Source: Methanoculleus sp. (lineage in GTDB: Archaea > Halobacteriota > Methanomicrobia > Methanomicrobiales > Methanoculleaceae). From it: 46,954 nt of DNA. The stretch covers positions 1 through 46,954 of the forward strand of contig NZ_JASEFJ010000015.1 of NCBI RefSeq assembly GCF_030019085.1, given 5' to 3'. Numbering within the stretch: the first letter of the stretch is position 1; every line of letters starts with the position of its first letter. The position numbers were made by a program, and so were the translations under genes. Below the pieces are notes generated by a model. It made no database searches, was not told the DNA's origin, and worked only from the letters and a program-made list of their open reading frames with translations. Positions 8,801 through 32,496 of the stretch are shown piece after piece.

Positions 8801-10822
8801 TTACTGTTCACCTCCAAGGAGGAACGCATCGATCTGTGCAATGATCTGGGGGGTAGCAAAGTGCTGCATCCAGATTGCGCCACCCGGACAGAAACCGCCG
8901 CATGTCCCGCAGCCCTTGCACTTGGCCTCGGTGACCTGCATGACCTTGCGCCCATCTTTCTCGACGAGAGAGAGAGCCTGGTATGGGCAGAGGTTGACGC
9001 ACATTCCACATCCAGCGCACTTTTCCTCGATACACTGGGCGAAGTATGGCTCAAGCTCCACCTCTCCAAGGTGAATCGGGATGGACGCCGCGGATGCCGC
9101 GCCTTCGGCCTGGGCAACCGTGTCCGGGATATCCTTTGGCCCCTGGCAGACACCCGCCAGGTAGACACCGGCGGTTGTGGTACCGCAGGGATTGAGCTTC
9201 GGGTGAGCCTCGAGGAGCCAGCCGTCCTGCGAACAGGACACACCAAAGAGCCTCCTGGTCCTCTCAGTCTCGGCGCTGGGCTGGATCGCAGCCGCAAGCA
9301 CGACCAGATCGACTTCCACATCGACAGGTCGACCGAGGAGTGTGTCTTCAGCGTTGACATGGAGGTTCTTTGTGACCGGATCTTCGAGGATGTTTGCAAC
9401 CCTGCCGCGGATGAACTTTGCACCCTCATTCTGGATGCGGTAGTAGAACTCCTCGTACATCTTTCCAAATGACCGGATGTCCATGTAGAAGATGTAGGGC
9501 ACCGCGCCCGGGATCTTCTCGATGATCTGGTGGGCGTGCTTGAGGGAGTACATGCAGCAGAACCGCGAGCAGTAGGGCTTACCGACGCCGGTGTTGTCAC
9601 GTGACCCTGCGCAGAGCACGAACCCGATCCTCTTTGGGGTCTCGCCGTCGCTTGGGCGGACTAGGTGACCACCGGTCGGGCCGGAAGCACAGATCAACCG
9701 CTCAAACTCAAGGCTTGTGATTACGTTGTCATACCTCTTGTAGCCCCACTCGGTCTTCTGCTCGATCGGGAAGATATCATAGCCTGTCGCAAGGATGGCG
9801 GTACCTACCTTGATTTTCACGAACTCGTCCGTTGCGTTCAGGTCGACCGCCTTCTTATCGCCGCAGATATCGACACAGAGACCACACTTGACGCAGGCAT
9901 CAAAGTCGACAGTATAAAGCAGCGGGGAGACCTGCGGGTGGTAGATGTAGATCGCTTTCCTCGGGGCCATGCCGACCTCGAAGGGGTTCGGTTTTATGAC
10001 CGGGCAGACACCCTCACAGTCACCGCAGCCATTGCATCCTCCACCGACATAACCACGGGCTTCTGCCTCTTCCGTCGTGAGGACACCACGCGCCTTCTTC
10101 CGGAGGGTTACATCAAAGTTACCGATGTACCCCTCGACCGCCTCGACCTCGGTGTAGGTCATGAGTTTGATATTCTCGTTACGGTAGACATCCACCATCT
10201 TCGGGGTAAGGATACACTGCGAACAGTCCAGCGTCGGGAAGGTCTTGTCGAGCTGGGACATCCTGCCACCAATGGTGGGGTTCTTCTCCACAAGGTAGGT
10301 CGTGATACCCGCATTTGCAAGGTCAAGCGCAGCCTGCATGCCGCCGACACCGCCACCAACGACCAGTGCTGCCTTCTCAACAGGGACACTCTTCGGGATG
10401 AGGTCTTCGAGGAGAGCTGCTTTTGCTACGGCGATCCTGATCGCGTCCTTTGCCTTCGCGGTGGCCTCTTCGGGCTGGTGCATGTGCACCCAGGAGTTCT
10501 GCTCGCGGATGTTTGCCATCTCGAACCGGAATGGATTCAAGCCACCCATCTTGGTTGCGCCACGGAACGTGGGCTCGTGCAGACGGGGTGAACAGGCCGC
10601 TACGACGATTCCGGTCAGATTATGCTCTTTTATGGCCTCTACAATCTTGTTCTGTCCGGGGGTAGAGCACATATACTGATAATCGTCTGCAACGGCGACG
10701 TTCGGGAGCTTCTTGGCGTATTCCACTACCGACTTGATATCCACGGAACCCGCGATATTTGTACCACAGTGGCACACAAAAACGCCAATTCTTGGCTCTT
10801 CGTTCTTTTTGACTTCTGCCAT
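8801..10822 (-). CDS. hdrA: CoB-CoM heterodisulfide reductase subunit A (electron-bifurcating flavoprotein)
   Basis: HdrA holds the FAD that bifurcates electrons, sending half to the heterodisulfide through HdrBC and half to ferredoxin for Fwd. From the ATG at 10820-10822 (GAGGTG eight bases upstream) it has 673 residues. Order: an N-terminal cysteine region (VFVCHCGTNIAG), the FAD motif VVGGGVGGMQAALDLA, the signature LDCSQCILTPKMVDV, one ferredoxin insertion (CNGCGDCEGVCP, CVKCGLCVDICG) and two C-terminal [4Fe-4S] motifs (CAGCGMCVNLCP, CKGCGTCGGFCP). All key residues are Cys, not selenocysteine. A GTG start at 10837 is possible but would place the ribosome site inside the gene. Confidence 0.96.
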   Translation of the reverse strand: MAEVKKNEEPRIGVFVCHCGTNIAGSVDIKSVVEYAKKLPNVAVADDYQYMCSTPGQNKIVEAIKEHNLTGIVVAACSPRLHEPTFRGATKMGGLNPFRFEMANIREQNSWVHMHQPEEATAKAKDAIRIAVAKAALLEDLIPKSVPVEKAALVVGGGVGGMQAALDLANAGITTYLVEKNPTIGGRMSQLDKTFPTLDCSQCILTPKMVDVYRNENIKLMTYTEVEAVEGYIGNFDVTLRKKARGVLTTEEAEARGYVGGGCNGCGDCEGVCPVIKPNPFEVGMAPRKAIYIYHPQVSPLLYTVDFDACVKCGLCVDICGDKKAVDLNATDEFVKIKVGTAILATGYDIFPIEQKTEWGYKRYDNVITSLEFERLICASGPTGGHLVRPSDGETPKRIGFVLCAGSRDNTGVGKPYCSRFCCMYSLKHAHQIIEKIPGAVPYIFYMDIRSFGKMYEEFYYRIQNEGAKFIRGRVANILEDPVTKNLHVNAEDTLLGRPVDVEVDLVVLAAAIQPSAETERTRRLFGVSCSQDGWLLEAHPKLNPCGTTTAGVYLAGVCQGPKDIPDTVAQAEGAASAASIPIHLGEVELEPYFAQCIEEKCAGCGMCVNLCPYQALSLVEKDGRKVMQVTEAKCKGCGTCGGFCPGGAIWMQHFATPQIIAQIDAFLLGGEQ

Positions 10823-10833
10823 GTATTTGCACC

Positions 10834-11739
10834 TCACTGGATCTTCCTCAGGAACGGCTCAACATCGACAGCATGAAGGTCGAGTCCCAGCTCATCCGGG
10901 CTCATGCCCTGCGCCAGTCCAAGGAGTTCGTTGTAGTGCAGGATCGGGAGTCCCCAGGTTATGCCAAACTTGTCATGGATCTCGAGCTGTCCCCTGTCGA
11001 ACTGCAACTGGCAGAACGGACAGACCTCGGTCAACGCATCCGCACCCACTTCCTGCAGGTTGATCATCTTCTCGTTCGTGATGTCAAGCGCATGTGCCAG
11101 GTCGTATCCGCGGACACCACCACCGGCACCGCAGCACTGCATCTTGTTGCGGTACTGGACCGGCTCAGCTCCGAGCGCAGCGACCAATTCATCCAGCCAC
11201 ATGGGGTTCTCGGTGTCGCCGAAGTGTCGATCCTTCTGGGGCTTCATCAGGTGACAACCATAGTGGACGCCAACCTTTACACCCGTCAGAGGGCGGGTGA
11301 CGCTCTCGGCGACCCTGTCGACACCCACGATCTTGGGGTCGTAATAGAGCTCAGCAAGGTGCCATACATCGATGGACCCCTTGTACTCCATATCAATCTC
11401 TGCAAGCACCTCATTGACCCCATCACGGAGTTCATCGTTGTGCTTCAGTTTATGGTTGACTTCCCAGATCGATTTGTAGCAGCCGTTACAGATCAAGGCA
11501 ATATCCATACCCATCTGCTCGGCAAGAACCAGGTTTCTGGCCGCCATCGCATACCAGATGTTCAGGTCGATCGAGCCAAATGCGCCCGGTGCCGGGCAGC
11601 AGCTTGCGCCCTTCAGGGGTAGCAGTTTGATCCCCAGTTTCTCACTGGTCTTTATGGCTGCCGCCTCGATACCCGGGTAGCGGTTCGGGGCGACACACCC
11701 GAGGAAGAACGCATACTGATGCTTGTTATTTTCGCTCAT
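10834..11739 (-). CDS. hdrB: CoB-CoM heterodisulfide reductase subunit B
   Basis: HdrB carries the two noncubane [4Fe-4S] clusters where CoM-S-S-CoB is cleaved. The 301 residues show two CCG-type domains: LGCVAPNRYPG with GASCCPAPGAF in the N-terminal half, and YGCHLMKP, QCCGAGGGVRGY and EVCPFCQLQFD in the C-terminal half. The start MSENNKHQY at 11737-11739 is chosen because it aligns with family length. A longer frame to 11775 would overlap hdrC. Spacing to hdrA is 11 bases, so the pair is probably translated together. Confidence 0.95.
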   Translation of the reverse strand: MSENNKHQYAFFLGCVAPNRYPGIEAAAIKTSEKLGIKLLPLKGASCCPAPGAFGSIDLNIWYAMAARNLVLAEQMGMDIALICNGCYKSIWEVNHKLKHNDELRDGVNEVLAEIDMEYKGSIDVWHLAELYYDPKIVGVDRVAESVTRPLTGVKVGVHYGCHLMKPQKDRHFGDTENPMWLDELVAALGAEPVQYRNKMQCCGAGGGVRGYDLAHALDITNEKMINLQEVGADALTEVCPFCQLQFDRGQLEIHDKFGITWGLPILHYNELLGLAQGMSPDELGLDLHAVDVEPFLRKIQ

Positions 11740-11743
11740 GGTC

Positions 11744-12325
11744 TCACTCACCCTCCGCCAGTATCCGGTCAGCACGTTCTTTCAGCCCGTAGTGGTCCAG
11801 GATCTTCCTGATACCGGGAAGGTACTCGGGATACTTGTGCGTTGTCTCCGGTTCCGCGTCGAGACCCAGTTTCTTCCGGGCAGCCCGGTTTGTGTCGTTG
11901 TTCGGGACACCGTGACCGGTCTTGTAGATGAGCTGGACGGTCTGGAGGAAGTTGCGCGGAATTATGTCACGCCTGGCAGCAATGTTCCTCATCGCCATGA
12001 TCGCGTCAGTCGGCGCGAGATCACGGGGACACCGGTCGGTACAGGTGTAGCACGTTGTGCAGAGCCAGAGGTCCGGGTCAGTCAGGGCTTCCTCTTCAAG
12101 ACCGAGGACTGCCTTGCGCATGAACAGCCGGATGCGATAGGAACTCCGCGGTGCCGATGGGCACGATCCGGTGCAGGTGCCGCACTGGAAACACATGTGG
12201 GCAGCCGTCTGCCCGATCTTCTCAACCTCCTTGAGAAACTCGGGATTGGTGTCAGAAACGTAGTACTTACGGTCCCGGAGTTTCTCAGCGAGTTTCTGGT
12301 CTTTATAATCTTTCTTCACTGCCAT
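11744..12325 (-). CDS. hdrC: CoB-CoM heterodisulfide reductase subunit C
   Basis: HdrC passes electrons from HdrA to the active-site clusters of HdrB. The 193 residues contain two [4Fe-4S] ferredoxin motifs, CFQCGTCTGSCPSAP and CTTCYTCTDRCPRD, separated by about 40 residues as in the family. It begins MAVKKDYKDQKLAEKLRDR, 10 bases after the fwdF stop, and is followed by hdrB after 4 bases. Placement directly after polyferredoxin fwdF, rather than in a separate hdr locus, fits a physical Fwd-Hdr assembly. Confidence 0.94.
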   Translation of the reverse strand: MAVKKDYKDQKLAEKLRDRKYYVSDTNPEFLKEVEKIGQTAAHMCFQCGTCTGSCPSAPRSSYRIRLFMRKAVLGLEEEALTDPDLWLCTTCYTCTDRCPRDLAPTDAIMAMRNIAARRDIIPRNFLQTVQLIYKTGHGVPNNDTNRAARKKLGLDAEPETTHKYPEYLPGIRKILDHYGLKERADRILAEGE

Positions 12326-15801: not shown

Positions 15802-15854
15802 CCTTAAATACGCATATCAACGATATTCTTGTTAACGATAATTTCGGTGACATC
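15802..15854 (+). promoter_or_regulatory. Promoter of the MMP11/aks operon with AACGATA repeats
   Basis: A TATA-like CTTAAATAC lies near 15803-15811. Two AACGATA copies follow at 15819-15825 and 15834-15840, 15 bases apart; their complement is TATCGTT, similar to the TATCGTAAC motif near ftr and fmdE. GGTGA at 15846-15850 is the ribosome site for the ATG at 15855. Confidence 0.4.
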
Positions 15855-16811
15855 ATGATCAGACTCACACCTGATGAAGTCAGGGCCAGGTTCGGGCCGT
15901 TGTTCTCGATGAAGTTCCTCGTAATGGTCGACCAGAATACCGGTCTTGCGGAGATCCGCGAGCATTGCCGGGCCCGGGGGACTATCGAGTGGGATGCGGC
16001 AAACCGGATGCGGGCTAAAGGTGCTGTCATCTCCTGCGATGTTAAAGGGACGACGATGACGATGCTTGCCCGTCTGGGCACCTCTCCGGCGAAGTTCGGG
16101 GCTGCAGACCGGGAGATCGGCGGTCAGGCACTTGAGGGTGTCGAGGTTCTCGGAGATGAGGTGGTGACCACCTGGGCCGGGATCGCCGGTGCGGGTGTCG
16201 GTGTCGCTGCCTGCCTGCCTCAGGCACCCGGGGTGATCCGGGCGGAGTACCCCGCCGAGGACGACCTCAGGATCGGCGGTGCCCGGGTCAACCGGGTTCG
16301 GATTGTATCTCCGCTCTACGAGAAGGTGACGATAGGGATCGACGACACCGACACCCGTGAGGAGGGAGCCACCTGGGTGCTCGCACTCCGTTGCGCAGAG
16401 GGCTGCAAAATTCCGGGGGTCGAGTATCTTGACATGCGCCTTGTGCAGCTCAACCCTGCTGTCCCGAAGAAGACCACCAACTGTGTCGGCTCGGCCCTGA
16501 ACTTCGCTGTCCGCCCTGGGCAGGTGAACGCGCTCCTCGATTATGTCCGCGACTTCGTCGAGTCTGGGAGTGTCAGCAAGGACACCGGGATCGCCGTATA
16601 TCGCGGGATTGCATTTGAGGAGGAGTCTCCCTACCTCAAGAGCGTCAAGACAGATATCCTGACGCTCGAAGACGCAGAGGCTGAGGCTGCACGGATGGGT
16701 GTCCGGTTTATCGACTCAAACGGACGGAAAGGCCGGATTGGTGCACTTGGCGCTGTCCTCTGGGGTAACAAAGGTGTGGAGGCGGCAGGACTGTATGGAG
16801 AGACTCTCTGA
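15855..16811 (+). CDS. MMP11-related protein with a GIDDTDT kinase-like motif
   Basis: The 318-residue protein shares its plan with the next gene, methanogenesis marker 11. It has a glycine-rich middle (WAGIAGAGVGVAACLPQAPG) followed by IGIDDTDTREEGATW at 160-174 and VQLNPAVPKKTTNC. The latter resembles the nucleotide-binding domain of the tRNA-Ile2 agmatinylcytidine synthetase TiaS (GIDDTDS, then a NPxxPxKT string). It is not TiaS, because the tRNA-binding C-terminal part is missing. The ATG at 15855 is chosen for its GGTGA site; an earlier start at 15732 would run through the promoter. It overlaps the next gene by 17 bases. The substrate is unknown. Confidence 0.75.
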   Translation: MIRLTPDEVRARFGPLFSMKFLVMVDQNTGLAEIREHCRARGTIEWDAANRMRAKGAVISCDVKGTTMTMLARLGTSPAKFGAADREIGGQALEGVEVLGDEVVTTWAGIAGAGVGVAACLPQAPGVIRAEYPAEDDLRIGGARVNRVRIVSPLYEKVTIGIDDTDTREEGATWVLALRCAEGCKIPGVEYLDMRLVQLNPAVPKKTTNCVGSALNFAVRPGQVNALLDYVRDFVESGSVSKDTGIAVYRGIAFEEESPYLKSVKTDILTLEDAEAEAARMGVRFIDSNGRKGRIGALGAVLWGNKGVEAAGLYGETL

Positions 16812-17688
16812 ACCGTATACGATACGGTATCCACAGATAGTGGCGGTGGCCGACGATACTGGTGGAGAGGTAGAACTCGTCGAGTTCTTCGACTGCATCG
16901 GCGGTGCGATGTGGGTAAAGCGGCACTACGCCAGAAGCCCGCTCGTCCGTTCTGTCCGCACCGTGGGAGCGACCACCCGCTATATCCTATCAACCGGGAG
17001 CGCCGATCTTGCCCTGCAGGGTTCAACCTTTCCGGCCGGTATTGCCGCAGTCAGCGTCGACAAGGATGAGATCTCCATCACCTACCGTGGTCTCGGCGGT
17101 GGGGGCGTCGGGGCGTCAATCTGCCGCGCCGGAGCAGGCGGGGTCATCCGCTGTGTGAGCGACCCTGCAGGCGGCGGCCGACTTGCGGGCTCGACTATCT
17201 GGCTCCCCAGGCGCGAACGGGTGATCATAGGGATCGACGACACCGACACAGCAGAAGAAGGCGCAACCTGGACGCTGACACACAACATCGCCCGTGCCGT
17301 CGAGGACGAGCGTTCCCGCTACCTCTCACACACCATAGTACAATTATACCCTGTCCCCTACCGGACCAAGAACTGTGTCGCCATCGCCTGCGAGTTTGCA
17401 ACCTCCGACCCCTCCGGCCTCGTCAGGTGCTACCGTGATTACCTGGAAGACTACACGCTCTCCGATGAGACCGGGATGGCGGTCTGGCGCGGATTCGACC
17501 CTTCACCGCTTGAGGAGTTCGGTTGCCGAGTAAAACGGGGCGAGGTCCCGGCGGATGACCTTGCCGCCATCGATGACAGGCGCCTCTCAATCGTCATGGA
17601 CGGTCGGGGGGCGATCGGGGCGGTGGCGGCGATCCCGTTTGCCACACGATACGAGGAGGCGCTGGCGCTATGGAATGGAAGCACCTGA
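16795..17688 (+). CDS. Methanogenesis marker protein 11
   Basis: This 297-residue protein matches what I recall of marker 11, a family found across methanogens with no assigned reaction. Its start region is YPQIVAVADDTGGEVELVEF, then CIGGAMWVKRHYARSPLVRS and the glycine-rich RGLGGGGVGASICRAGAGG. The TiaS-like IGIDDTDT motif is at 145-152, followed by AEEGATWT, and VPYRTKNCVAI comes after. The ATG at 16795 has GGAGGCGGCAGG before it. It overlaps the genes on both sides (17 and 19 bases), so it is in the same transcript as aksA-aksF, which ties the family to coenzyme B synthesis by context only. Confidence 0.8.
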   Translation: MERLSEPYTIRYPQIVAVADDTGGEVELVEFFDCIGGAMWVKRHYARSPLVRSVRTVGATTRYILSTGSADLALQGSTFPAGIAAVSVDKDEISITYRGLGGGGVGASICRAGAGGVIRCVSDPAGGGRLAGSTIWLPRRERVIIGIDDTDTAEEGATWTLTHNIARAVEDERSRYLSHTIVQLYPVPYRTKNCVAIACEFATSDPSGLVRCYRDYLEDYTLSDETGMAVWRGFDPSPLEEFGCRVKRGEVPADDLAAIDDRRLSIVMDGRGAIGAVAAIPFATRYEEALALWNGST

Positions 17689-18641
17689 AAGCCAGGGTGC
17701 TTGAGACCGGCGCAGTCCGCCTCTCCGGCGAACCCGCAGATGAATACATCTCCCGCTCCGCTGCCGGTCCTTCGGCCGGGTCGTCAGGGTCGATCTTCTT
17801 TACCACCGGCGGTGGCCGGAGGGTCAGGGCAGGAACGGATGATGCAAGCCCCATCGAGGTCGTTCACCGTGGAGGTGGGGAGGCCACCCTGATCATCGAC
17901 GGCGAGGTCATCTCCGGCCGGCTCGAACCCCCTGCCCTCCACTGCCCCCGCCAGGCCTACATCACGGTCAGCGGGACGTGCATATTCCATTGCCGCTACT
18001 GCACGGTGCCGGGTCTAGCGGGACAGCGAAAGACCATCGATGAGATCGTCCGGATGGTAAAAGACGTTGCAGACAGGGTTGACGCCATCGCCATCACAAG
18101 TGGCGTTGCTTCCTCGATCGAGGAGGAGGAAGCCTATACCCTGGAGGTCGTAGCGGCGCTCCGCTCGTCTGGCATTCCCATCGGGGTATCAATATACCCA
18201 ACCCCTAGAACGCCGGCACGCCTCCATGCCCTGGGCGTCGTCGAGGTGAAGTTCAACCTTGAGGCGGCAACCCCGGAACTCTTCGCGAAGATGTGCCCGG
18301 GGCTATCCTGGGAGGCGATCCGGGATGCGCTTACATCTTCTGTCGAACTCTTCGGGCCCGGCAGGGTCTACTCGAACATCATCGTCGGGCTCGGCGAGAC
18401 CGATGACGACCTTGAACGGTTGATGAAAGACCTCGCCGGGAGCGGGGTCGTCCCGATCCTCCGGCCGCTCACCCCGGCGGCATCGCTCGCCGACCAGCCT
18501 CGCCCCTCCGCTGAACGGTTGCTCTCACTTGCCGTGATTCACGAAAGGATCCTCCGGGAGGCCGGGCTCGATCCCCGGAGGGCTCTAACCATGTGTGCGG
18601 CATGCACCGGCTGCGACCTGGTGCCGGGGAGGGATACATGA
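17670..18641 (+). CDS. Radical SAM protein of unknown substrate
   Basis: The motif CIFHCRYC gives Cys104, Cys108 and Cys111, the three ligands of the radical SAM [4Fe-4S] cluster. Downstream are the SAM-barrel strands AIAITSGVASSIEEEE and VKFNLEAATPELFAKMCPG. The C-terminus ends with Cys309-X2-Cys312-X2-Cys315 (MCAACTGCDL), which may hold an auxiliary cluster. At 323 residues it is shorter than the Mcr arginine methylase MMP10 and lacks the MMP10 start, so I do not call it that. A GAGGAGG site precedes the ATG. Its last 4 bases are the ATGA shared with the TPP gene, so the two are translationally coupled. Confidence 0.8.
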   Translation: MEWKHLKARVLETGAVRLSGEPADEYISRSAAGPSAGSSGSIFFTTGGGRRVRAGTDDASPIEVVHRGGGEATLIIDGEVISGRLEPPALHCPRQAYITVSGTCIFHCRYCTVPGLAGQRKTIDEIVRMVKDVADRVDAIAITSGVASSIEEEEAYTLEVVAALRSSGIPIGVSIYPTPRTPARLHALGVVEVKFNLEAATPELFAKMCPGLSWEAIRDALTSSVELFGPGRVYSNIIVGLGETDDDLERLMKDLAGSGVVPILRPLTPAASLADQPRPSAERLLSLAVIHERILREAGLDPRRALTMCAACTGCDLVPGRDT

Positions 18642-19882
18642 GGGGCGCAAAAGCGCTTGCCAGTGCCGTGTCTCAGGCCGCTGACCGGTTTTACACCGTC
18701 CCGGGCTACCCCGTATCTGAGGTTGCCGCCCTGACGGGAGCGGTCATCACCGTCAACGAGAAGGTGGCGCTCGAGTACGCCCTGGGCGACTCACTCTCCG
18801 GGAGGAGGGCTGCCGTGATCGTCAAGCACGTCGGACTCAACGCCTGTGTCGACCCGCTGGTGCACGCAACCGCCCAGGGGCTCAGGGCTGGTGTCGTGAT
18901 CGTTGTCGGCGACGATATCCACGTCAGCGGATCGGACGTCGGTGGCGACTCCCGGTATTACGGGGAGGTTTCATGGGCCCCGGTGTTCGAACCTGACAGC
19001 GAGACGCTCGGACCTGCCGTGGAGGCGGCGTTTGAGGCATCGGAGACCTTCGCCCGGGTGGCCATACTCAGGGTCACCCCCGATCTTCTGGAGGCTGACG
19101 TCTCAGAGCCCTTCATCCAGCGGAATGACCTGGAGGGAAGCCTGGCTGACCCTGATCTCACGATGGCTGGCCGGGCAGAGGCCGCTGACCGGCGGACTGC
19201 TGCGATGTTTGCCTGGGCACGATCGTCGCCGCTGAACAGGTTCCGTCCTGTCATCGCCTACCCACCCCCGACGGATGCGGATGTGCCCGCCTCATTCCCC
19301 GAAGAGAGGGGTCGCCCCTTCCTCCGGGAGCACCGTCTCCTCGCCCCTCCAGACGTTAGGGTGGAGCCGCAGCGGTTCTCAAGCCGCGGGTTCTCGCGAA
19401 CTTTCTGCAGAGACTGCCCGTTTCATCCGGCTCTCCGTATCCTTCAAGAGCGCGGGATGCGGGTGGTCTGCGACGCCGGGTGTAGCATCCTGGCGATGAA
19501 CCCGCCCTACCGCATCGGTGTTGCCACCTACGGTCTCGGTTCGTCGATAGCCGTCGCGGCGACCGGGCCAGGGGTAGCGCTCGTCGGGGATTACGCGCTC
19601 CTGCATTCGGGGCTAAACGCCCTCATCGATGTCTACGAAAGTGGACTTCCGCTCCTCTGTATCGTATTTGCGAACAGACGGATGGGGATGACCGGCGGTC
19701 ACCCCATCCCCGAGATCCTTCGCTACATCGCCTGGGCAGAACCGGTTGTCTGCGCTGCCGATGACGCGACGGCGCTTCGCCGCGCACTCGTCCTCCCGGA
19801 GGACGGTCCCCGGACGGTGGTGATCGAAGGTGTCTGCCCGGAAGGTGGACGACATGTTACCATGGAATATCGAGATCTGTGA
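18638..19882 (+). CDS. Thiamine-pyrophosphate enzyme, IorA-like, without ferredoxin domain
   Basis: The 414 residues resemble the alpha subunit of indolepyruvate:ferredoxin oxidoreductase. The N-terminal half has VNEKVALEYALGDSLSGRRA, where Glu41 or Glu46 could activate TPP. The middle has TFCRDCPFHPAL and VVCDAGCSIL (Cys257, 260, 278, 282). The C-terminal TPP-binding segment runs from GDYALLHSGLNAL (317-329) to ANRRMGMTGGHP (345-356). True IorA proteins carry a C-terminal two-cluster ferredoxin domain and an IorB partner; both are missing here. With aksA-aksF next to it, a non-oxidative 2-oxoacid decarboxylase acting on 2-oxosuberate is an attractive but unproven idea. Confidence 0.75.
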   Translation: MRGAKALASAVSQAADRFYTVPGYPVSEVAALTGAVITVNEKVALEYALGDSLSGRRAAVIVKHVGLNACVDPLVHATAQGLRAGVVIVVGDDIHVSGSDVGGDSRYYGEVSWAPVFEPDSETLGPAVEAAFEASETFARVAILRVTPDLLEADVSEPFIQRNDLEGSLADPDLTMAGRAEAADRRTAAMFAWARSSPLNRFRPVIAYPPPTDADVPASFPEERGRPFLREHRLLAPPDVRVEPQRFSSRGFSRTFCRDCPFHPALRILQERGMRVVCDAGCSILAMNPPYRIGVATYGLGSSIAVAATGPGVALVGDYALLHSGLNALIDVYESGLPLLCIVFANRRMGMTGGHPIPEILRYIAWAEPVVCAADDATALRRALVLPEDGPRTVVIEGVCPEGGRHVTMEYRDL

Positions 19883-20984
19883 TGTTACGCTGCGAGACGG
19901 GGAACAGACTCCTGGCGTCTCGTTTACCTGTGATGAGAAGATGGCAATCGCGCAATCGCTCGACGAGATCGGCGTGGAAGTGATCGAGGCCGGGTTCCCC
20001 GTCGTCTCCCGGGCGGAGAAAGAATGTGTCGCGGCCGTCGCCAGAAGTGGCCTGGATGCCCGGATCTGCTGCCTGGCACGGGCGCTAAAACCCGATGTCG
20101 AGGCGGCGCTCGACTGCGACGTGGATATGGTCAGTATCTTTGTCGCGATCTCCGACCTCCATGTCCGGCACAAGTACCACAAGCCACGGGAGGCGGTGAT
20201 CGAGGATGCCCTTAATATGGTGGAGTTCGCCGCCGACCATGGAGTGCAGATCCGGCTTGCTGCCGAAGACGCCTCACGGACTGACCCGGAGATTCTTATT
20301 GATATGTACCGCAGGGGGATCGAGCGCGGCGCCACTCTCGTCAGTTTCGCCGATACCGTCGGCTGCCTCACCCCGCTCGAAACCCACTCCGTTGTCTCCA
20401 GGATCCTGGATGCCGGGCCCTTCCCGCTCTGTGTCCACTGCCACAACGACCTCGGGTTTGCAGCGGCAAACACCATCACCGCCGCGGCCGCCGGGGCGTT
20501 CCAGCTCCACACCACCGTGAACGGCATCGGTGAGCGTGCCGGGAACGCAGCGCTCGAACAGGTGCTCGTTGCCCTGCACTTTAAAGGTGGGGTCGAGCGC
20601 TACGACCTCTCCCGATTGCAGGAGATCTCCAGGCTGGTCGCACGATGCTCTGGCATAACGCCGGAACGGATGCACCCGATCGTCGGCGAGAACGCGTTTG
20701 CCCACGAAAGCGGGATCCATATCGCCGCGATCCTCTGTGACCCGGCGACCTACGAGTATGTACCTCCCGAACTGGTGGGCAGTGAACGCCGATTCGTGCT
20801 CGGGAAACATAGCGGGAGAAAGGCGCTCGAACACGTTGCAAAGGCTTACGGGTTTGAACTCTCCGATGATGAAGCCACCTGGGTTCTCGAGCAGGTCAAG
20901 CAGAAGAGCGAGGGGAAATGTTGTGTCACCCGCGAGGTTCTCTGCGACCTCCTGCGGCAGGTAAGAGAGGGGGGCGGCCGGTGA
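19854..20984 (+). CDS. aksA: Homocitrate synthase family protein, coenzyme B pathway
   Basis: AksA condenses acetyl-CoA with 2-oxoglutarate and then with its longer homologues, starting the chain extension to 2-oxosuberate for coenzyme B. The 376 residues show the alpha-isopropylmalate/homocitrate synthase hallmarks: DVTLRDGEQTPGVSF, VCVHCHNDLGFA and TTVNGIGERAGNAALEQVLV, then HESGIHIAAIL and LGKHSGRKAL. The ATG at 19854 (GGTGG before it) is chosen over a GTG at 19830. The family cannot separate AksA from LeuA or CimA by motif alone; the adjacent aksD, aksE and aksF decide it. It overlaps the TPP gene by 29 bases. Confidence 0.85.
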   Translation: MLPWNIEICDVTLRDGEQTPGVSFTCDEKMAIAQSLDEIGVEVIEAGFPVVSRAEKECVAAVARSGLDARICCLARALKPDVEAALDCDVDMVSIFVAISDLHVRHKYHKPREAVIEDALNMVEFAADHGVQIRLAAEDASRTDPEILIDMYRRGIERGATLVSFADTVGCLTPLETHSVVSRILDAGPFPLCVHCHNDLGFAAANTITAAAAGAFQLHTTVNGIGERAGNAALEQVLVALHFKGGVERYDLSRLQEISRLVARCSGITPERMHPIVGENAFAHESGIHIAAILCDPATYEYVPPELVGSERRFVLGKHSGRKALEHVAKAYGFELSDDEATWVLEQVKQKSEGKCCVTREVLCDLLRQVREGGGR

Positions 20985-22192
20985 GCACACTATCGGAACG
21001 GATACTTGGCGCACCGGCGGGGGCATACGTCGACCGCGATGTCGATCTCGCCTTCGCCCACGACGGCACCGGCGTCCTTACCCGGGAGGCGCTCCACGAG
21101 ATGGGGGTGGAACAGCTCCCCCACCCCGAACGTCTCCGCCTGATCTTCGACCACATCGTCCCGGCCAACACGGGGACCACAGCGACGCTCCAGGCCGAAC
21201 TCCGGGCGTATGCACGGGTTTCCGGGATACCGCTCTCGGATGTCGGAGAGGGGATCTGCCACCAGGTGATGAGCGAAGGCCTTGTTCGACCGGGGATGAT
21301 CGTCGTCGGGGCCGACTCTCATACCTGCACCGCGGGCGCCTTTGGAGCGTTCGCCACGGGGGTTGGCGCGACCGATATGGCGGCGATCTGGGCATCGGGC
21401 GGCACCTGGTTCCGCGTCCCCGAGACGATCGCGGTCAACCTCTCCGGCAACCTCTCCGGCGCCGCGGAGCCAAAAGACCTGGCACTTACCTACGTCGCCC
21501 GACTGGGGATGGAAGGCGCGACCTACCGGGCGCTGGAGTTCGTCGGCGAGGGGGTAAGAGGGATCTCGATGGACGGGCGGTTGACACTCTGCAACATGGC
21601 AGTCGAGACGGGGGCGAAGACCGGGATGTTCTACGCCGACGATCTCACCCTCCGCTACCTTGCTGGCTACGGGGTTAAAGCCTCATCACAGGTCGTGGAG
21701 GACTGCCGCTACGAGCGTACTCTAGATCTCGATCTCGATGATATCGTCCCTCTCGTCGCCGTCCCGCACCGGGTGGACACCGTCCTTGAGGCTGAAGAGG
21801 TCGCTGGAACACACCTCGACCAGGTCTTCGTTGGTACGTGCACAAACGGCCGCTACGAGGATCTGGAGCGGTTTGCCCGTATCGTCCGCGGTAAGAAGGT
21901 GGCCGTCCGCACCCTGGTATTCCCTGCATCGCGTGCGGTGCTTTCGCGGGCGATCGAGAGAGGCATCCTCGCCGATATAGTGAATGCTGGCTGCGCGGTC
22001 GGCCCACCAGGGTGCGGTCCGTGCCTCGGGGCACATGCAGGGGTGCTCGGGGAAGGGGAGGTCTGTCTCTCCACCGCCAACAGGAACTTCAAGAATCGGA
22101 TGGGCGTGGGCGGCAAGATCTACCTCTCGTCGGTCGCAACGGCCGCCGCAAGCGCGCTCGCCGGCGAGATAGCCGTCCCGGAGGTGGCCTGA
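20981..22192 (+). CDS. aksD: Homoaconitase large subunit
   Basis: This is the [4Fe-4S] subunit of the hydrolyase that isomerises homocitrate and its longer homologues. The 403 residues show VVGADSHTCTAGAFGAFATG, VGTCTNGRYEDL and NAGCAVGPPGCGPCLGAHAG, which contain the three cluster cysteines, and STANRNFKNRMG near the C-terminus. The GTG start at 20981 overlaps the aksA stop in GTGA. Leucine-pathway LeuC is very similar; the homoaconitase role is assigned from the partner subunit, whose substrate loop reads YLRT. Confidence 0.87.
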   Translation: MSTLSERILGAPAGAYVDRDVDLAFAHDGTGVLTREALHEMGVEQLPHPERLRLIFDHIVPANTGTTATLQAELRAYARVSGIPLSDVGEGICHQVMSEGLVRPGMIVVGADSHTCTAGAFGAFATGVGATDMAAIWASGGTWFRVPETIAVNLSGNLSGAAEPKDLALTYVARLGMEGATYRALEFVGEGVRGISMDGRLTLCNMAVETGAKTGMFYADDLTLRYLAGYGVKASSQVVEDCRYERTLDLDLDDIVPLVAVPHRVDTVLEAEEVAGTHLDQVFVGTCTNGRYEDLERFARIVRGKKVAVRTLVFPASRAVLSRAIERGILADIVNAGCAVGPPGCGPCLGAHAGVLGEGEVCLSTANRNFKNRMGVGGKIYLSSVATAAASALAGEIAVPEVA

Positions 22193-22662
22193 TGCAGGGA
22201 GCAGGACCTGCGGTCTGCCTCGGGAACGATATCGACACAGATCTCATCATCGCGGGCCGCTACCTCCGGACGAAAGACCGTTCGGTCTGGGCGGAGCATG
22301 TCTTTGAGGACCTGGATCCAACGCTTGCAGGCCGTCTCCCCGGTTCGGTCATCGTCGCCGGGCGGAACATGGGTTGCGGGTCGTCCAGGGAACAGGCGGT
22401 GATCGCCCTGCGCGAGGCCGGGGTGGTCGGGGTCGTTGCGGAATCGTTTGCCCGCATCTTCTTTCGTAACGCCATCAACGTTGGTCTGCCGGTGATCGAG
22501 GCGAGGGTTCCCTGCACCGATGGTGCCCGGGTCGCCTTCGACCTGGAAGAGGGGTGGGTGGAGGCGGACGGAAAACGCTACCCCGCTCGCCCGCTCTCGG
22601 AGAGGATGCTTGCCATCCTCCGGGCCGGCGGACTGGTAGATTTCTGGAGGGCGTCCAGATGA
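22192..22662 (+). CDS. aksE: Homoaconitase small subunit
   Basis: The 156-residue swivelling subunit pairs with AksD. It has the signatures GNDIDTDLIIAGRYLRT and GRNMGCGSSREQAVIALREA. The loop YLRT at residues 24-27 is the sequence reported for methanogen homoaconitase, where isopropylmalate isomerase has YLVY or YLVM, so this is direct support for the coenzyme B assignment. The ATG shares one base with the aksD stop (TGATG). Confidence 0.88.
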   Translation: MQGAGPAVCLGNDIDTDLIIAGRYLRTKDRSVWAEHVFEDLDPTLAGRLPGSVIVAGRNMGCGSSREQAVIALREAGVVGVVAESFARIFFRNAINVGLPVIEARVPCTDGARVAFDLEEGWVEADGKRYPARPLSERMLAILRAGGLVDFWRASR

Positions 22663-23486
22663 TATTTCCACCACACTGCAAGTTTGTAGGGGTTGCAAAC
22701 GGCACCCCCTGTGGGAGGGATAAGGCCTACTTCCTCACACGCTACATCGTCCGTGAGACCCCGGAGGGCACAGAGGTCGTCGAGGTCAAGACCGATACAG
22801 AATATACCGGGCTGCTGCGGACGGTGCTCTCCAGCCGTGTGCTTGCCGCCGGTGATGAGGTCTACCATTACCCGGAACCCGTGAACGTCCAGGACCGAAC
22901 TTTCCTTGTGACCGAGGCTATGAGGTCAGGCTACCGGTGTACCATATTTTCCGGTTACGGCGAGCAGACCACGTTTGTCATCGACCCGGACCTCTCAAGT
23001 TTCCTTCGCATCCACGTCTACGACATCACACCGCCACGGCCCCACCTCTCGGCCACGCTCACCGACCTCGAGAGAACCGGGGTCTTCGGCGACCTCGAGG
23101 TGGTCTTCGAGCACCATGTCCGTGACATCAGGGAGATCGGCGCCGATGTCTACCCCTGCCGTGCGGCCGGGTTCCCGCGCACAATTGACGCTGACCGACT
23201 CCGCCCCGGCGACCGCGTCGCGGCGTGCATGACCGGACGTGAACTGATAAAGGAGTGTTACGATGACTCTGTGATCCTGGTGGATAACATCTGCCCGCTC
23301 GAGGCTGTGAAGGCCGAACCATTCATCGCCCGGTGTTGCCGGAGCGAGCGGGCTGGTGTCGGCCTCCGGAACGGCCTTCTCGGTGCGGTTGTCCACTGGG
23401 GTGCGTCGGCATGGGATATGGTGGAGGCCGTGAGACTGGTTGCAACCACATGGAGGAGAGGGGATGACAGAGGTAGCGGTTGTTGA
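22659..23486 (+). CDS. Unrecognised 275-residue protein inside the aks operon
   Basis: I do not recognise a named family. The protein has no signal peptide or membrane segment and looks like a soluble alpha-beta protein. It starts MIFPPHCKFVGVANGTPCG and holds nine cysteines, including CRAAGFP, ACMTG, ECYDDSV and FIARCCRSERAGVGLRNGLL. Its C-terminal part HWGASAWDMVEAVRLVATTW is helix-like. It is joined to aksE by ATGA and overlaps aksF by 23 bases, so its product is made along with the chain-extension enzymes. That placement suggests a role in coenzyme B synthesis, but no reaction can be read from the sequence. Confidence 0.8.
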   Translation: MIFPPHCKFVGVANGTPCGRDKAYFLTRYIVRETPEGTEVVEVKTDTEYTGLLRTVLSSRVLAAGDEVYHYPEPVNVQDRTFLVTEAMRSGYRCTIFSGYGEQTTFVIDPDLSSFLRIHVYDITPPRPHLSATLTDLERTGVFGDLEVVFEHHVRDIREIGADVYPCRAAGFPRTIDADRLRPGDRVAACMTGRELIKECYDDSVILVDNICPLEAVKAEPFIARCCRSERAGVGLRNGLLGAVVHWGASAWDMVEAVRLVATTWRRGDDRGSGC

Positions 23487-24432
23487 GGGCGACGGTATAG
23501 GGCACGAGGTCGTCCCGATCGCCCGCGAGATCCTCGCAGCCTTGCGCCCGGATCTCGAGTTCTTCGATGTCGAGGTGGGTTACGGCCGCTGGGAGCGGAC
23601 GGGGAGTGCCTGTGACGAGGAGACGATCGCCGACCTGAAGTCGGCGGACGCCATCCTCTTTGGCGCCATCACAACGCCGCCCGACCCTGGCTACAGGAGC
23701 GTTCTTCTGCAGATCCGCCGGGCTCTCGACCTCTACGCAAACGTCCGCCCGATACGGGGTGAAGGGGTCGATATCGTCATAGTGCGGGAGAACACCGAGG
23801 GTCTCTACTCGGGGATCGAGTGGACCGAACCCGATCGTGCCTGCACCGTCCGGGTCGTATCCCGCCGGGGGAGCGAGCGGATTGCCCGCTACGCCTGCAA
23901 CCTTGCGAAGTCCCGCCGCCACCTCACCATCGGCAACAAGGCAAACGTCCTGAAGTCGGACTGTCTGTTTGTCGATATCTGCACCAGGGAGGCTGCCAGG
24001 GCTGGGGTTCCCTGCACGGCGCGTTTCATCGACGCGCTCTCCCTTGACATCCTGATGCACCCGGAGCGCTACGACGTGGTTGTAACGACCAACATCTTCG
24101 GCGACATCCTCTCCGATACCGCAGCCTACCTGGTGGGCGGGCTTGGTATGCTCCCTAGCGCCAATATAGGGGAGCGGCACGCACTCTTTGAACCCGTCCA
24201 TGGGAGCGCCCCCGATATAGCTGGACAGGATACAGCAAACCCCATTGCAGCGATCAGGAGCGCGGCGATGCTCCTTGCCCATATAGGCGATCCGGAATCG
24301 GCGGCGGTCATCGAGGCGGCCGTTGATAGGGTGCTTGACGCTGGCATCCGGACGCGCGATCTGGGCGGTAACGCCGGTACCCGGGAGTTCGGGGCGGCGG
24401 TGCTCAGGGAAGTTCTGCGTGGGAAGGCCTAA
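23464..24432 (+). CDS. aksF: Homoisocitrate dehydrogenase family protein, coenzyme B pathway
   Basis: AksF oxidatively decarboxylates homoisocitrate and its longer homologues, closing each round of 2-oxoacid elongation. The 322 residues fit the isocitrate/isopropylmalate dehydrogenase family: [13 protein letters not shown], the substrate loop [27 protein letters not shown], the divalent-metal strand [15 protein letters not shown], and [18 protein letters not shown] for NAD binding. The ATG at 23464 follows GGAGAGGGG. A LeuB assignment is possible in principle; the aksA-aksD-aksE context favours AksF. Confidence 0.87.
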
Positions 24433-24458
24433 ACGCTCAAGGGTTGAGAGACTACGGT

Positions 24459-25307
24459 ATGGTGCTGGTTGGATGCCACATCTCCATCGCCGGGTCGATC
24501 GATCGTGCGGTCGACCGTGCCCGCGATGCGGGTTGTGACACGTTTCAGATCTTCTCCCGGAACCCGAGAGGCTGGAGGGCTAAGGACCTCGATGTGGACG
24601 TGGTCGACGCGTTCCGGGCGGCGGTGAGGTCATCGGGGCTCGGCCCGGTATTTGACCACATGCCCTACCTCCCGAACCTGGCCTCACCCGACGATGCCAT
24701 TTATGAGAAGTCGGTCGCTGCGCTTGCCGGTGAGCTCAGGCGGTGTGCTTTTCTCGGTATACCCTATCTTGTGACCCACCTTGGACACCACCGCGGCGCC
24801 GGGATCGAAGAAGGACGGGAACGGGTCATCGCCGCGATCAACCGTGCGTTTGATGAAACCGGGGATGCGGGGGTGATGCTCCTCCTCGAGAACACCGCCG
24901 GGGAGAAGAACAGCGTTGGGACGAGGATCGAGGATCTCGCGCTGATATATGATGGGCTGGATGATAGGGGAGAGTTCGGGATCTGTTTTGATACCTGTCA
25001 CGCGTTTGGCGCAGGCTACGACCTCCGGACCGCGGAGGGGGTCGATGCCGTCGTTGCAGAGATCGATGAACGAATCGACCTGGACAACCTCTATCTCATC
25101 CATCTCAACGACAGCAAGGGGGATCTCGGGAGCGGACTTGACCGACACGAGCATATCGGCCTTGGATCCATAGGAGAGGATGGGTTTCGGGGGATCCTCC
25201 GCAACCCGGAGATCCGACGTCTTCCCCTGATCTGCGAGACGCCGGTCGACGCCAGGCGGGACGATGCCGGGAACATCGCAAAAGTCCGCGAACTTGCCGG
25301 GGATTGA
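24459..25307 (+). CDS. nfo: Endonuclease IV (AP endonuclease)
   Basis: Endonuclease IV nicks DNA 5' of abasic sites using three metal ions. The 282 residues form a TIM-barrel with the family motifs: VGCHISIAGSIDRAVDRA, DTFQIFSRNPRGW, THLGHHRGAG, LENTAGEKNSVGT, GICFDTCHAFGAGYD and LNDSKGDLGSGLDRHEHIG. The ATG at 24459 leaves 26 bases after aksF. A TTG at 24444 is an alternative. It has no evident link with coenzyme B, but lies in the same direction and close enough to share the transcript. Confidence 0.93.
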   Translation: MVLVGCHISIAGSIDRAVDRARDAGCDTFQIFSRNPRGWRAKDLDVDVVDAFRAAVRSSGLGPVFDHMPYLPNLASPDDAIYEKSVAALAGELRRCAFLGIPYLVTHLGHHRGAGIEEGRERVIAAINRAFDETGDAGVMLLLENTAGEKNSVGTRIEDLALIYDGLDDRGEFGICFDTCHAFGAGYDLRTAEGVDAVVAEIDERIDLDNLYLIHLNDSKGDLGSGLDRHEHIGLGSIGEDGFRGILRNPEIRRLPLICETPVDARRDDAGNIAKVRELAGD

Positions 25308-25330
25308 GCACCAGTAGAGAGGTGGCCTGT

Positions 25331-26197
25331 ATGAAGATCGAGAGCGATTCGGTCGAGGGGGAGGTGCCACCCTCCCGCTGGAGGGTGCGCGGGAGGCGGC
25401 AGGTAGACCTCTGTATCGTCTCGTTCTGCATCCTGGGTGCGGTTCTTGCAGGGCTCACGGTTCTTGCACTGGCCAACATCACGATAACCGAACTTGGAGA
25501 CCCGCTCCACCTCATCGAGGTTGCGGCATCGTCAGGGGTGCTCGGCTCGATCCTCCTCACCTTCTCTGCGGGGGCAAACGCCGTCCTTCTCCTCATCATC
25601 TTCGGAACACCGCTTGCATACGTCCTCGCCCGGGCTCCCCCATCCAGGTTTAAGGGAGTTGTTGAGAGCATCGTCGACCTCCCGCTCATCCTGCCACACA
25701 CGGTTGCTGGATTGCTCGTCTACCTCCTCTTCATGCGGAGGGGATGGCTCGGCGCGCCGCTCGCCGAGATCGGACTTGCATTCGAGGACGCCTACCCCGG
25801 CACGGTCGTCGCGATGCTCTTCGTCGCCTCGCCGTTCTTTGTAAACACCATGCGGGAAGGGTTTGAGAAGGTCCCCCTCCACCTTGAGAACGTCGCCCGC
25901 ACCCTCGGCGCCGGGACGTTCACCACCTTCCGAACGGTCACCCTCCCTCTTAGCCTGCGGCATCTGTTTAACGGGGCAATCCTTGCCTGGGGAAGGGCAA
26001 TCGGGGAGTTTGCCGCCGTGGTCATGATCGCATACTACCCGTTCATCATATCGACGCTGATCTACTACTCGTTTACCACATCCGGTATCCGCACGAGCAG
26101 GAGCATCGCATTTGTGGTCATAGTGGTCAGTCTCGGCGTATTCTACCTGCTGCGGAGGTTGACCGGATACCTGGGGAGGTACGATGATCGCGTTTGA
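25331..26197 (+). CDS. wtpB: Molybdate/tungstate ABC transporter permease
   Basis: This 288-residue inner membrane protein belongs to the ModB/WtpB group. There is a basic, soluble N-terminal stretch, then about six membrane segments. The conserved coupling loop LENVARTLGAGTFTTFRTVTLPL and LPLILPHTVAGLLVYLLF are both typical of oxyanion permeases. The ATG at 25331 has GAGGTG nine bases before it. It overlaps the ATPase gene by 14 bases. No substrate-binding protein gene adjoins the pair. Molybdate versus tungstate preference cannot be read here, so the symbol is tentative. Confidence 0.85.
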   Translation: MKIESDSVEGEVPPSRWRVRGRRQVDLCIVSFCILGAVLAGLTVLALANITITELGDPLHLIEVAASSGVLGSILLTFSAGANAVLLLIIFGTPLAYVLARAPPSRFKGVVESIVDLPLILPHTVAGLLVYLLFMRRGWLGAPLAEIGLAFEDAYPGTVVAMLFVASPFFVNTMREGFEKVPLHLENVARTLGAGTFTTFRTVTLPLSLRHLFNGAILAWGRAIGEFAAVVMIAYYPFIISTLIYYSFTTSGIRTSRSIAFVVIVVSLGVFYLLRRLTGYLGRYDDRV

Positions 26198-27263
26198 TCG
26201 GGTATCGCTCAGGCTGGGGTCGTTCTCCCTGAAGGAGATCAGTCTCTCGATCAACCGGGGCGACTACTACTTCATCATCGGCCCCTCTGGCGCGGGAAAG
26301 ACGGTGCTCCTCGAGGCGATTGCCGGTCTCCACAGGCCGGACAGCGGCCGCATCCTCCTCCGGGGGCAGGAGATCACCGACCTACCCCCGGAACGTAGGG
26401 GGATCGGTCTTGTCTATCAAGACTACTCGCTCTTCCCGAACATGACCGTCATCGACAACGTCTCCTACGGTCTTCGCGCCCGGGGGTTGCACAGGCATGA
26501 AGCACGCGAGAGAGTCGCCGGTCTCCTCGAAAGGTTCGGGGTCGAACACCTGGCTTACCGCTACCCGGGAACCCTATCAGGGGGTGAACAGCAGCGTGTG
26601 GCACTCGCAAGAGCCATCGCTGTCAAACCGGATATCCTCCTCCTGGATGAACCGCTCTCGGCGCTCGACCCCGTAACCCAGGAAAGGTTCATCGCCGACC
26701 TCAGGCGACTCCACCAGGACGAGGGGCTCACTATCGTGCACGTCAGCCATTCCCGCAGGGAGGCGCACATGCTTGCAACCCGGATGGCAGTCATCATCGA
26801 CGGCCGCCTCGTCGACGAGGGCGAGGCCGATGTTGTTCTGAGCGCCCCGGGGAGCCGTGAGGTTGCAGCCTTCATCGGGGTTGAAAACATCCTGGACGGG
26901 GTGGTGATGGCAAACGATGGCGGGCATGCAACGGTGGATGCAGGTGGGTTGAGGTTTGAGGCGCTGACAGACGCTGCAGTGGGAGAGGAGGTCTGTCTCT
27001 GCATCCGTGCCGACGACCTCATCGTCGCCCCCGGCGACGACCGGTTGCCCAACACCCCAAACAAGATGAGCGGGACGATCATTCAGATCATCGAGAACGG
27101 TCCTGTGACCGACGTCCTGGTGGATGCGGGTATGGAACTGACCGCGGTCATGACCCGGCGGTCGGTGCGGGATCTCGGGCTTTCGCCGGGGGTTCGGGTC
27201 AACATCTCCGTGAGAGAAGACGCGATCCACGTCATCCGTTCTGCGCTTTCAGCGCGAGAGTGA
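26184..27263 (+). CDS. wtpC: Molybdate/tungstate ABC transporter ATP-binding protein
   Basis: The 359-residue protein has a Walker A GPSGAGKTVLL at about 33-43, a Q-loop LVYQDYSLFPNM, the ABC signature LSGGEQQRVALARA, Walker B ILLLDEPLSALDP and the H-loop IVHVSHSR. After the ATPase domain, a C-terminal region (about 240-359) looks like the TOBE oxyanion-sensing domain of ModC/WtpC: EVCLCIRADDLIVA, then GTIIQIIENGPVTDVLVD. That domain can inhibit transport when Mo or W is plentiful. Its end overlaps the converging SemiSWEET gene by 32 bases. Confidence 0.88.
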   Translation: MIAFDRVSLRLGSFSLKEISLSINRGDYYFIIGPSGAGKTVLLEAIAGLHRPDSGRILLRGQEITDLPPERRGIGLVYQDYSLFPNMTVIDNVSYGLRARGLHRHEARERVAGLLERFGVEHLAYRYPGTLSGGEQQRVALARAIAVKPDILLLDEPLSALDPVTQERFIADLRRLHQDEGLTIVHVSHSRREAHMLATRMAVIIDGRLVDEGEADVVLSAPGSREVAAFIGVENILDGVVMANDGGHATVDAGGLRFEALTDAAVGEEVCLCIRADDLIVAPGDDRLPNTPNKMSGTIIQIIENGPVTDVLVDAGMELTAVMTRRSVRDLGLSPGVRVNISVREDAIHVIRSALSARE

Positions 27264-32372: not shown

Positions 32373-32496
32373 TCCGGTCAAATCCACCCCTTTTTGCATG
32401 AGATTGAACCTCCTATCTTCACTGACGTGCCTCTGGCACCGGGGCCGGGGATCATCTGGTTTTTTGCCGCTGAGGTAACACGATCGGGTGCAAGGC

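Follow-up and report, generated by a model that had tools for sequence, protein, structure and literature searches.

In the genome of a Methanoculleus sp., the genes aksA, aksD, aksE and aksF were found together with five further genes in a single nine-gene unit, which we read, at a probability of about 0.62, as an extended operon for coenzyme B, the electron donor of methyl-coenzyme M reductase. The unit lies in a stretch of 46,954 nucleotides (nt), hereafter the window, in a 1.9-Mb assembly of 59 contigs. AksA, AksD, AksE and AksF lengthen 2-oxoglutarate to 2-oxosuberate, and older labelling work identified 7-oxoheptanoate as a precursor of coenzyme B. In the proposed pathway, the four Aks enzymes would supply 2-oxosuberate from 2-oxoglutarate, a thiamine pyrophosphate (TPP) enzyme resembling IorA would decarboxylate it non-oxidatively to 7-oxoheptanoate, a DUF7714 protein would take part in converting this to 7-mercaptoheptanoate, and methanogenesis marker 11 (MMP11) would use ATP in a late step, most simply by activating the acid for joining to threonine phosphate. 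The enzymatic steps in this scheme are inferred from gene order, homology, sequence motifs, linkage and co-occurrence. A 2011 inventory of two methanogens (PMC3087415) puts the number of unknown proteins for coenzyme B at two, and lists the enzyme of coenzyme M reductive thiolation as not yet identified in any organism.

Gene content and identity of the unit

The preliminary description had reported a tightly packed operon here, and both its coordinates and its packing were confirmed: nine plus-strand genes occupy 15855-24432, and all eight junctions overlap by 1-29 nt (in order 17, 19, 4, 29, 4, 1, 4 and 23 nt). The gene names given earlier also agreed with the family models, while the count of four extra genes had to be corrected to five, namely an MMP11 paralogue, MMP11, a radical S-adenosylmethionine (SAM) protein, the IorA-like TPP enzyme and the DUF7714 protein. 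A gap of 552 nt separates the unit from the upstream open reading frame (ORF), which ends at 15302, and the start codon at 15855 is backed by homologues. The features are as follows.

15804-15810, plus strand: possible archaeal promoter element TTAAATA, 45 nt 5' of the first start codon (by eye; weak)
15855-16811, plus strand: MMP11-like paralogue with a TiaS-type kinase domain (TIGR03280 190.4 bits, below the cut-off of 255.8; TiaS_TCKD 58.7 bits)
16795-17688, plus strand: MMP11, candidate for an ATP-dependent late coenzyme B step (TIGR03280 335 bits, above the cut-off of 255.8)
17670-18641, plus strand: radical SAM protein with CX3CX2C and a C-terminal CX2CX2C (Radical_SAM 68 bits)
18638-19882, plus strand: IorA-like TPP enzyme lacking a ferredoxin domain, putative 2-oxosuberate decarboxylase (IOR_alpha 121 bits, below cut-off)
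19854-20984, plus strand: aksA, homocitrate synthase family (HMGL-like 264 bits; apart from the LeuA/CimA clade)
20981-22192, plus strand: aksD, homoaconitase large subunit, GTG start (IPMI_arch 482 bits; aconitase large)
22192-22662, plus strand: aksE, homoaconitase small subunit, motif YLRT (LEUD_arch 169 bits; aconitase small; AGRYLRTKDRS)
22659-23486, plus strand: DUF7714/XcbA-superfamily protein, candidate for an aldehyde-to-thiol step (PF24830 264.9 bits, above the gathering score of 25)
23464-24432, plus strand: aksF, homoisocitrate dehydrogenase family (Iso_dh 305 bits; LEU3_arch 381 bits, below cut-off)

The assignment of the window's genes to Aks and not to Leu is supported by the YLRT-type loop of the small subunit, which we take as the marker of homoaconitase, and by the AksA tree. 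The genome's second small subunit reads GRFLTIYDP at this place, and YLRT or YLRS was found in the clusters of the window's phylum and in 14 of 14 Methanomethylicia clusters. In a tree of 42 rows, the window's AksA belongs to a clade (98/98) separate from the LeuA/CimA clade (99/95). The AksA proteins of the window's phylum, Methanomethylicia and Methanofastidiosia all fall outside the latter; the Thermoplasmata row is long-branched and unsure. The window proteins scored below the equivalog cut-offs for AksF, HacA and HacB. This combination of motif and tree set coenzyme B makers apart, unlike the number of AksE paralogues, which was rejected as a marker since all 31 genomes (of 32) with any match had at least two. 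Compared with Aks pathway operons, the unit thus shares all four enzymes and the YLRT-type small subunit, and differs by the five further genes packed into it.

Conservation of gene order

In other genomes, the surroundings of MMP11 and of DUF7714 were read over stretches of at most 20 kb; for MMP11 this was also done in 80 named records. Names attached to the f-numbered groups are inferred, f14 being Methanocellaceae and the window's order Methanomicrobiales. Eight out of 11 same-order stretches keep MMP11, the radical SAM gene, the TPP gene, aksA, aksD, aksE, DUF7714 and then aksF; in one of these (L075), aksF lies past the stretch end and MMP11 about 3 kb from the rest. DUF7714 is turned to the other side in two stretches (L045 and L046), and the 18 kb read in the last one, L044, held MMP11, the radical SAM gene and DUF7714 but neither a TPP gene nor any aks gene. 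The MMP11 paralogue is present at the locus in six of the 11. Three of four f14 stretches hold MMP11, DUF7714, the TPP gene and all four aks genes within 12 kb, and the fourth ends just past MMP11. Groups f8 and f22 divide the cluster, with MMP11 joined to the TPP gene in 8/8 cases and a separate locus where DUF7714 adjoins aksE, with aksF close by, in 11/11. Both f7 stretches show a single cluster made up of the TPP gene, DUF7714 and all four aks genes. Outside the phylum, the usual Methanomethylicia cluster consists of aksA, MMP4 (methanogenesis marker 4), aksD, aksE, an acetolactate-synthase-like TPP gene, MMP11 and a GMC-type flavoprotein gene, and that of Methanofastidiosia of MMP11, aksA and an acetolactate-synthase-like TPP gene.

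An aks gene was found at most 10 kb from MMP11 in 10 of 11 loci of the window's order, three of four in f14, 14 of 16 in Methanomethylicia, five of eight in the Methanofastidiosia group and the single Thermoplasmata locus, AksA alone being seen in the last two. Only one of five f8 loci and one of the four loci of f22 and L176 together had such a neighbor, and none of the six in f7, f30 and f31 together; since many stretches stop at contig ends, misses may be overcounted. Linkage of MMP11 to aks genes thus extends over three phyla (the window's own, Thermoproteota and Methanobacteriota) and perhaps, more weakly, a fourth, Thermoplasmatota. By our estimate, an aks cluster and the 10 kb flanking it at either end take up 1-2% of such a genome, which makes it unlikely that the linkage in distant phyla arose by chance, although the counted lineages are not independent. 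Six loci are present twice under two names (L065/L097, L066/L100, L070/L141, L071/L099, L073/L109 and L074/L136), and the MMP11 locus counts for Archaeoglobi (23) and "other" (12) include such duplicates.

Some loci were excluded. Methanobacteriaceae were dropped as support for the linkage because the adjoining small subunits read YLTL or YLIL, which we take to be the Leu type; ten rows (L140, L144, L152, L155, L160, L162, L163, L164, L169 and L175) were therefore left out of the aks count. The same was done for L074/L136, an Archaeoglobi locus reading YYHLRS. An untyped aksD-like gene at 5.4 kb (L172) was counted under "other" and supports nothing.

Two kinds of neighbors were noted downstream of the unit. 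An endonuclease IV gene (24444-25307, TTG start) follows after 11 nt, and is near aksF or DUF7714 in eight of the 11 same-order stretches. Two sets of ABC transporter genes, by eye of the molybdate or tungstate type, lie less than 10 kb downstream (25304-27263 and 31455-34292).

Candidate functions of the additional proteins

The best supported candidate is the IorA-like TPP protein, as a putative 2-oxosuberate decarboxylase. This reading is based on its retention of IorA catalytic motifs, the loss of the ferredoxin tail, the company of aks genes, and replacement by a TPP enzyme of another family elsewhere. Glu41 of the NEK motif, the GD-N motif and four Cys are all common to IorA, while the 55-59-residue ferredoxin tail of IorA, with its Cys-rich motifs, is missing in 5/5 aligned TPP rows, and the middle domain is shrunken in the window's order. 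Against the IorA model TIGR03336, the protein scored 120.8 bits (cut-off 650.9), and it has no C-terminal ferredoxin domain. Its gene is situated at most 10 kb from MMP11 in 10/11 loci of the window's order, 3/4 in f14, 5/5 in f8 and 4/4 in f22 and L176 together, adjoins aksA in both f7 stretches read around DUF7714, and is on another contig in f30. Five of the six aks-bearing lineages read in the phylum have it beside MMP11 or in the aks cluster. An operon-type TPP protein was found in 17 out of 32 genomes, 11 of them with full-length matches above 600 bits and six, from the window's order, with split matches at the operon; aks genes were read in 16 of these, the genome without a read being G011. 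Two genomes gave intermediate scores (G218, 455 bits; G149, 357 bits), and among the remaining 13 the best match was at most 318 bits in IorA-length frames in eight and absent in five. In Methanomethylicia and Methanofastidiosia loci, the acetolactate-synthase-like enzyme, sharing only general TPP domains with that of the window, takes its place; it was found in the vicinity of MMP11 at 15 of 16 Methanomethylicia and five of eight Methanofastidiosia-group loci.

The DUF7714 protein is a likely candidate for the aldehyde-to-thiol step. Its gene adjoins aksE in f8 (7/7 stretches), f22 (4/4) and f30 (2/2), and aksF in f14 (3/3 stretches reaching it) and f7 (2/2), so that all six aks-bearing lineages, bar rearranged members of the window's order, have it beside one of the two. 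A protein of the coenzyme M cluster in Mycolicibacterium chubuense belongs to the same family (PF24830, 311.7 bits), although tblastn alone gives only 27% identity to the window's (E 4e-5). Five Cys are invariant across 24 DUF7714 sequences, the bacterial XcbA-family protein included. As in the bacterial coenzyme M (xcb) cluster, the gene stands beside genes for a thiol coenzyme, but the nine-gene unit lacks phosphosulfolactate synthase and cysteine desulfhydrase. Against the XcbA-family model NF052538 (cut-off 150), the window protein scores just 41.5 bits, an f8 copy 78.4, the Hydrothermarchaeum copy 119.7 and the Mycolicibacterium copy 439 bits.

XcbA reportedly performs the last, reductive step to the thiol (Wu et al. 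2022), and the conversion of sulfoacetaldehyde to coenzyme M would be a close parallel to that of 7-oxoheptanoate to 7-mercaptoheptanoate. In M. chubuense, the gene adjoins that of phosphosulfolactate synthase, between it and lyase/desulfhydrase genes, and by position it is probably xcbF1, described in PMC8727900 as a conserved 308-residue protein gene between xcbB1 and xcbE1, with its function left open. PMC11507031 names Xanthobacter XcbA a functional analogue of sulfoacetaldehyde dehydrogenase. Within the phylum, DUF7714 was found in 120 of 294 genomes, all of which also have MMP11 (in G047 by a match below cut-off) and four of which lack an MMP4 match. Sequence comparison with solved structures gave no relative of DUF7714, the lone listed match having E 0.9, and a structure prediction from two sequences (mean pLDDT 37.9) was not used. 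In Hydrothermarchaeum (L173, 9998-12764), overlapping MMP11 and radical SAM genes are directly followed by DUF7714, with no aks gene in the stretch. No DUF7714 was present in the Methanomethylicia stretches read, where the gene after MMP11 encodes a GMC-type flavoprotein with a Cys-rich segment (e.g. L106, 10956-12125), a possible stand-in for the reductive step.

For MMP11, a part in an ATP-dependent late step is plausible. Its predicted structure (pLDDT 92.6) matches TiaS, the tRNA(Ile2) agmatidine synthetase, over residues 140-295 (Z 20.9, root-mean-square deviation 1.9 over 152 residues), and the sequence scores 49.5 bits with the TiaS kinase domain PF22641 (threshold 27). Thr158 aligns with Thr18, presumably the phosphorylated residue of TiaS, and Asp148, Asp149 and Asp151 with Asp8, 9 and 11 (Archaeoglobus fulgidus numbering, taken from an alignment of 3amt); these four positions are invariant in 37 MMP11 sequences. 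Besides this shared fold and signature, MMP11 differs from TiaS in length (297 versus about 420 residues) and in its N-terminal half, for which the full-model comparison listed no clear structural match. The full-length TiaS equivalog NF040849 (600 bits) gave no match to MMP11 and 35.8 bits with the paralogue. Joining an acid to threonine phosphate needs ATP, with which an activating role would fit; MMP11 may instead be a threonine kinase or serve another ATP step. The TiaS kinase domain is described in PMC11938285 as specific for RNA and protein. Among the open-licence literature matches listed, none of the excerpts gave MMP11 or MMP4 a coenzyme B role by name or pathway, and "MMP11" in the excerpts of PMC8479958 and PMC12584684 turned out to be locus tags.

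Two more relatives of MMP11 were seen in the same genome. One is a third MMP11-like protein (G000:C33:8520-9344, L096), whose N-terminal extension appears DNA-binding-like by eye. The other is a 233-residue protein in the window (30614-31315), barely more than a TiaS-type kinase domain (TIGR03280 54.6, PF22641 27.2 bits), flanked, by eye, by a kinase-like gene and a tungstate-type ABC transporter set.

MMP11 co-occurs with MMP4/MtxX, which is encoded outside the window (G000:C33:153021). Using TIGR03270 at E 0.001 for MMP4, and counting as present seven MMP11 matches below cut-off (E 1e-30 to 1e-70), the 294 genomes were divided into 137 with both, eight with MMP11 only, one with MMP4 only and 148 with neither; at the strict MMP11 cut-off, the numbers were 133, 5, 5 and 151. 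This shows a partnership, not a pathway. MMP4 also sits in the aks clusters of Methanomethylicia, being at most 10 kb from MMP11 in 10 of 16 loci, and directly follows MMP11 or the paralogue in L099, L101, L104, L107, L072, L076 and L094, among others.

Counter-evidence, alternative readings and meaning

Several findings weigh against the coenzyme B reading. No aks gene was found within 10 kb of MMP11 in nine Methanococci loci or in 12 Methanobacteriaceae loci, ten of the latter having Leu-type neighbors. Co-location of the extra genes with aks beyond the genus, as suggested earlier, therefore holds for several lineages of the window's phylum, Methanomethylicia and Methanofastidiosia, but for MMP11 not in Methanococci, Methanobacteriaceae, f7, f30 or f31. 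DUF7714 lies away from aks in f31 (3/3) and Hydrothermarchaeum, and had no match in the Methanocaldococcus jannaschii control, so other methanogens must use something else. Of the 17 regions around MMP4 examined in the window's phylum, 14 from aks-bearing genomes, none had an aks gene or MMP11 nearby. The TPP enzyme, to judge by its four Cys, may have kept an Fe-S cluster, which would be superfluous for a simple decarboxylase.

The distribution of MMP11 also counts against the coenzyme B reading. MMP11 occurs in named records of Geoglobus, Ferroglobus, Mnemosynella, Hydrothermarchaeum and Actinomycetota. AksA is absent from four Archaeoglobi-type genomes that have MMP11, MMP4 and the radical SAM protein (G024, G034, G063 and G149), three of which are also missing mcrA, and was not found in any of the five Archaeoglobi-type genomes searched, the mcrA-bearing G063 included, nor in G007 (f12), which has mcrA. 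None of the small subunits read in eight MMP11-bearing Archaeoglobi-type genomes (both copies) and in G007 and G027 was of the YLRT type. Archaeoglobi-type genomes with MMP11 also have MMP4, and such occurrence without AksA means that MMP11 is not bound to the Aks pathway. The expectation that the extra genes would be absent from organisms without coenzyme B thus did not come out cleanly, given these genomes and the Actinomycetota, which may lack it. The claim that the operon offers MMP11 a concrete context gains from the linkage across phyla and the TiaS kinase signature, but loses from its occurrence without AksA.

Beside these absences stands an observation on f12: its members (G007, G017, G027, G037 and G045) have full-length mcrA, no MMP4, no DUF7714, and a TiaS-level MMP11 match or none. 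The window's own assembly has weak mcrA matches only (best E 1e-59), probably because of a gap there.

It is possible that the operon combines two co-regulated modules, the TPP and DUF7714 proteins serving coenzyme B, and MMP11, the radical SAM protein and MMP4 making or modifying another cofactor that methanogens and some of their relatives require. In the four Archaeoglobi-type genomes without AksA, MMP11 adjoins the radical SAM gene and MMP4 is encoded at another place; the same MMP11-radical SAM pair recurs in 7/7 Actinomycetota loci, which is a further point against the coenzyme B reading, and the radical SAM family is present in G007 and G027, where mcrA is found without MMP4 and MMP11 scores are TiaS-level. 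Such a division is harder to reconcile with the five Methanofastidiosia loci where MMP11 overlaps aksA, without a radical SAM match in the stretch, and with the position of MMP11 inside the aks cluster of Methanomethylicia.

More doubtful is an elaboration of the coenzyme B reading in which MMP11 and MMP4 would form a two-part ligase ending coenzyme B synthesis. MMP11, as a TiaS-type kinase adapted to small molecules, would convert 7-mercaptoheptanoate to its acyl phosphate, from which MMP4, a relative of phosphotransacetylases, would transfer the acyl group to threonine phosphate. If so, two markers without a function would gain one, and Mcr-less relatives with MMP11, MMP4 and the radical SAM protein would draw on a different chain source to make coenzyme B or a related compound.

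It is unlikely that the TPP protein is instead an oxidoreductase that uses its Fe-S cluster to oxidise 2-oxosuberate to pimeloyl-CoA or pimelate, with the thiol arising by later reduction or radical SAM sulfur insertion. The four Cys shared with IorA would agree with this, as would the radical SAM protein, which resembles LipS2 and solved lipoyl and biotin synthases, and the LipS1 gene after MMP11 in a Thermoplasmata locus (L117). Opposed to it are the lost ferredoxin tail, the stand-in TPP enzyme of other phyla, which scores best with acetolactate synthases, and the labelling work on 7-oxoheptanoate. The radical SAM protein, whose Cys are invariant in its family alignment, scored 63 bits with LipS2 (NF053743, cut-off 270) and 69 bits with MSMEG_0568 (TIGR04043, cut-off 303.7), the latter giving 307 bits with the Actinomycetota relative. 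In L117, from a metagenome-assembled genome, an AksA-like gene, MMP11 and the LipS1 lipoyl synthase gene lie in a row (8424-11821). Least probable of all is an inherited old gene order of no functional meaning: the arrangement is passed down within the window's order and the counted lineages are not independent, but proximity has survived reshuffling (some genes are turned in L045-L047, and f8 and f7 divide the cluster differently), and the partners differ in Methanomethylicia and Methanofastidiosia.

As a lead for the missing coenzyme B genes, the operon is strong; the case is good for the TPP and DUF7714 proteins and moderate for MMP11, while for the radical SAM protein and the MMP11 paralogue it is weak. 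The proposal that all the extra proteins share the pathway is accordingly well supported for the first two, plausible for MMP11 and weakly supported for the last two. The operon supplies candidates for the coenzyme B steps after 2-oxosuberate, some of which are present in Methanosarcina, where gene removal is feasible, and it connects a pair of methanogenesis markers with a pathway.

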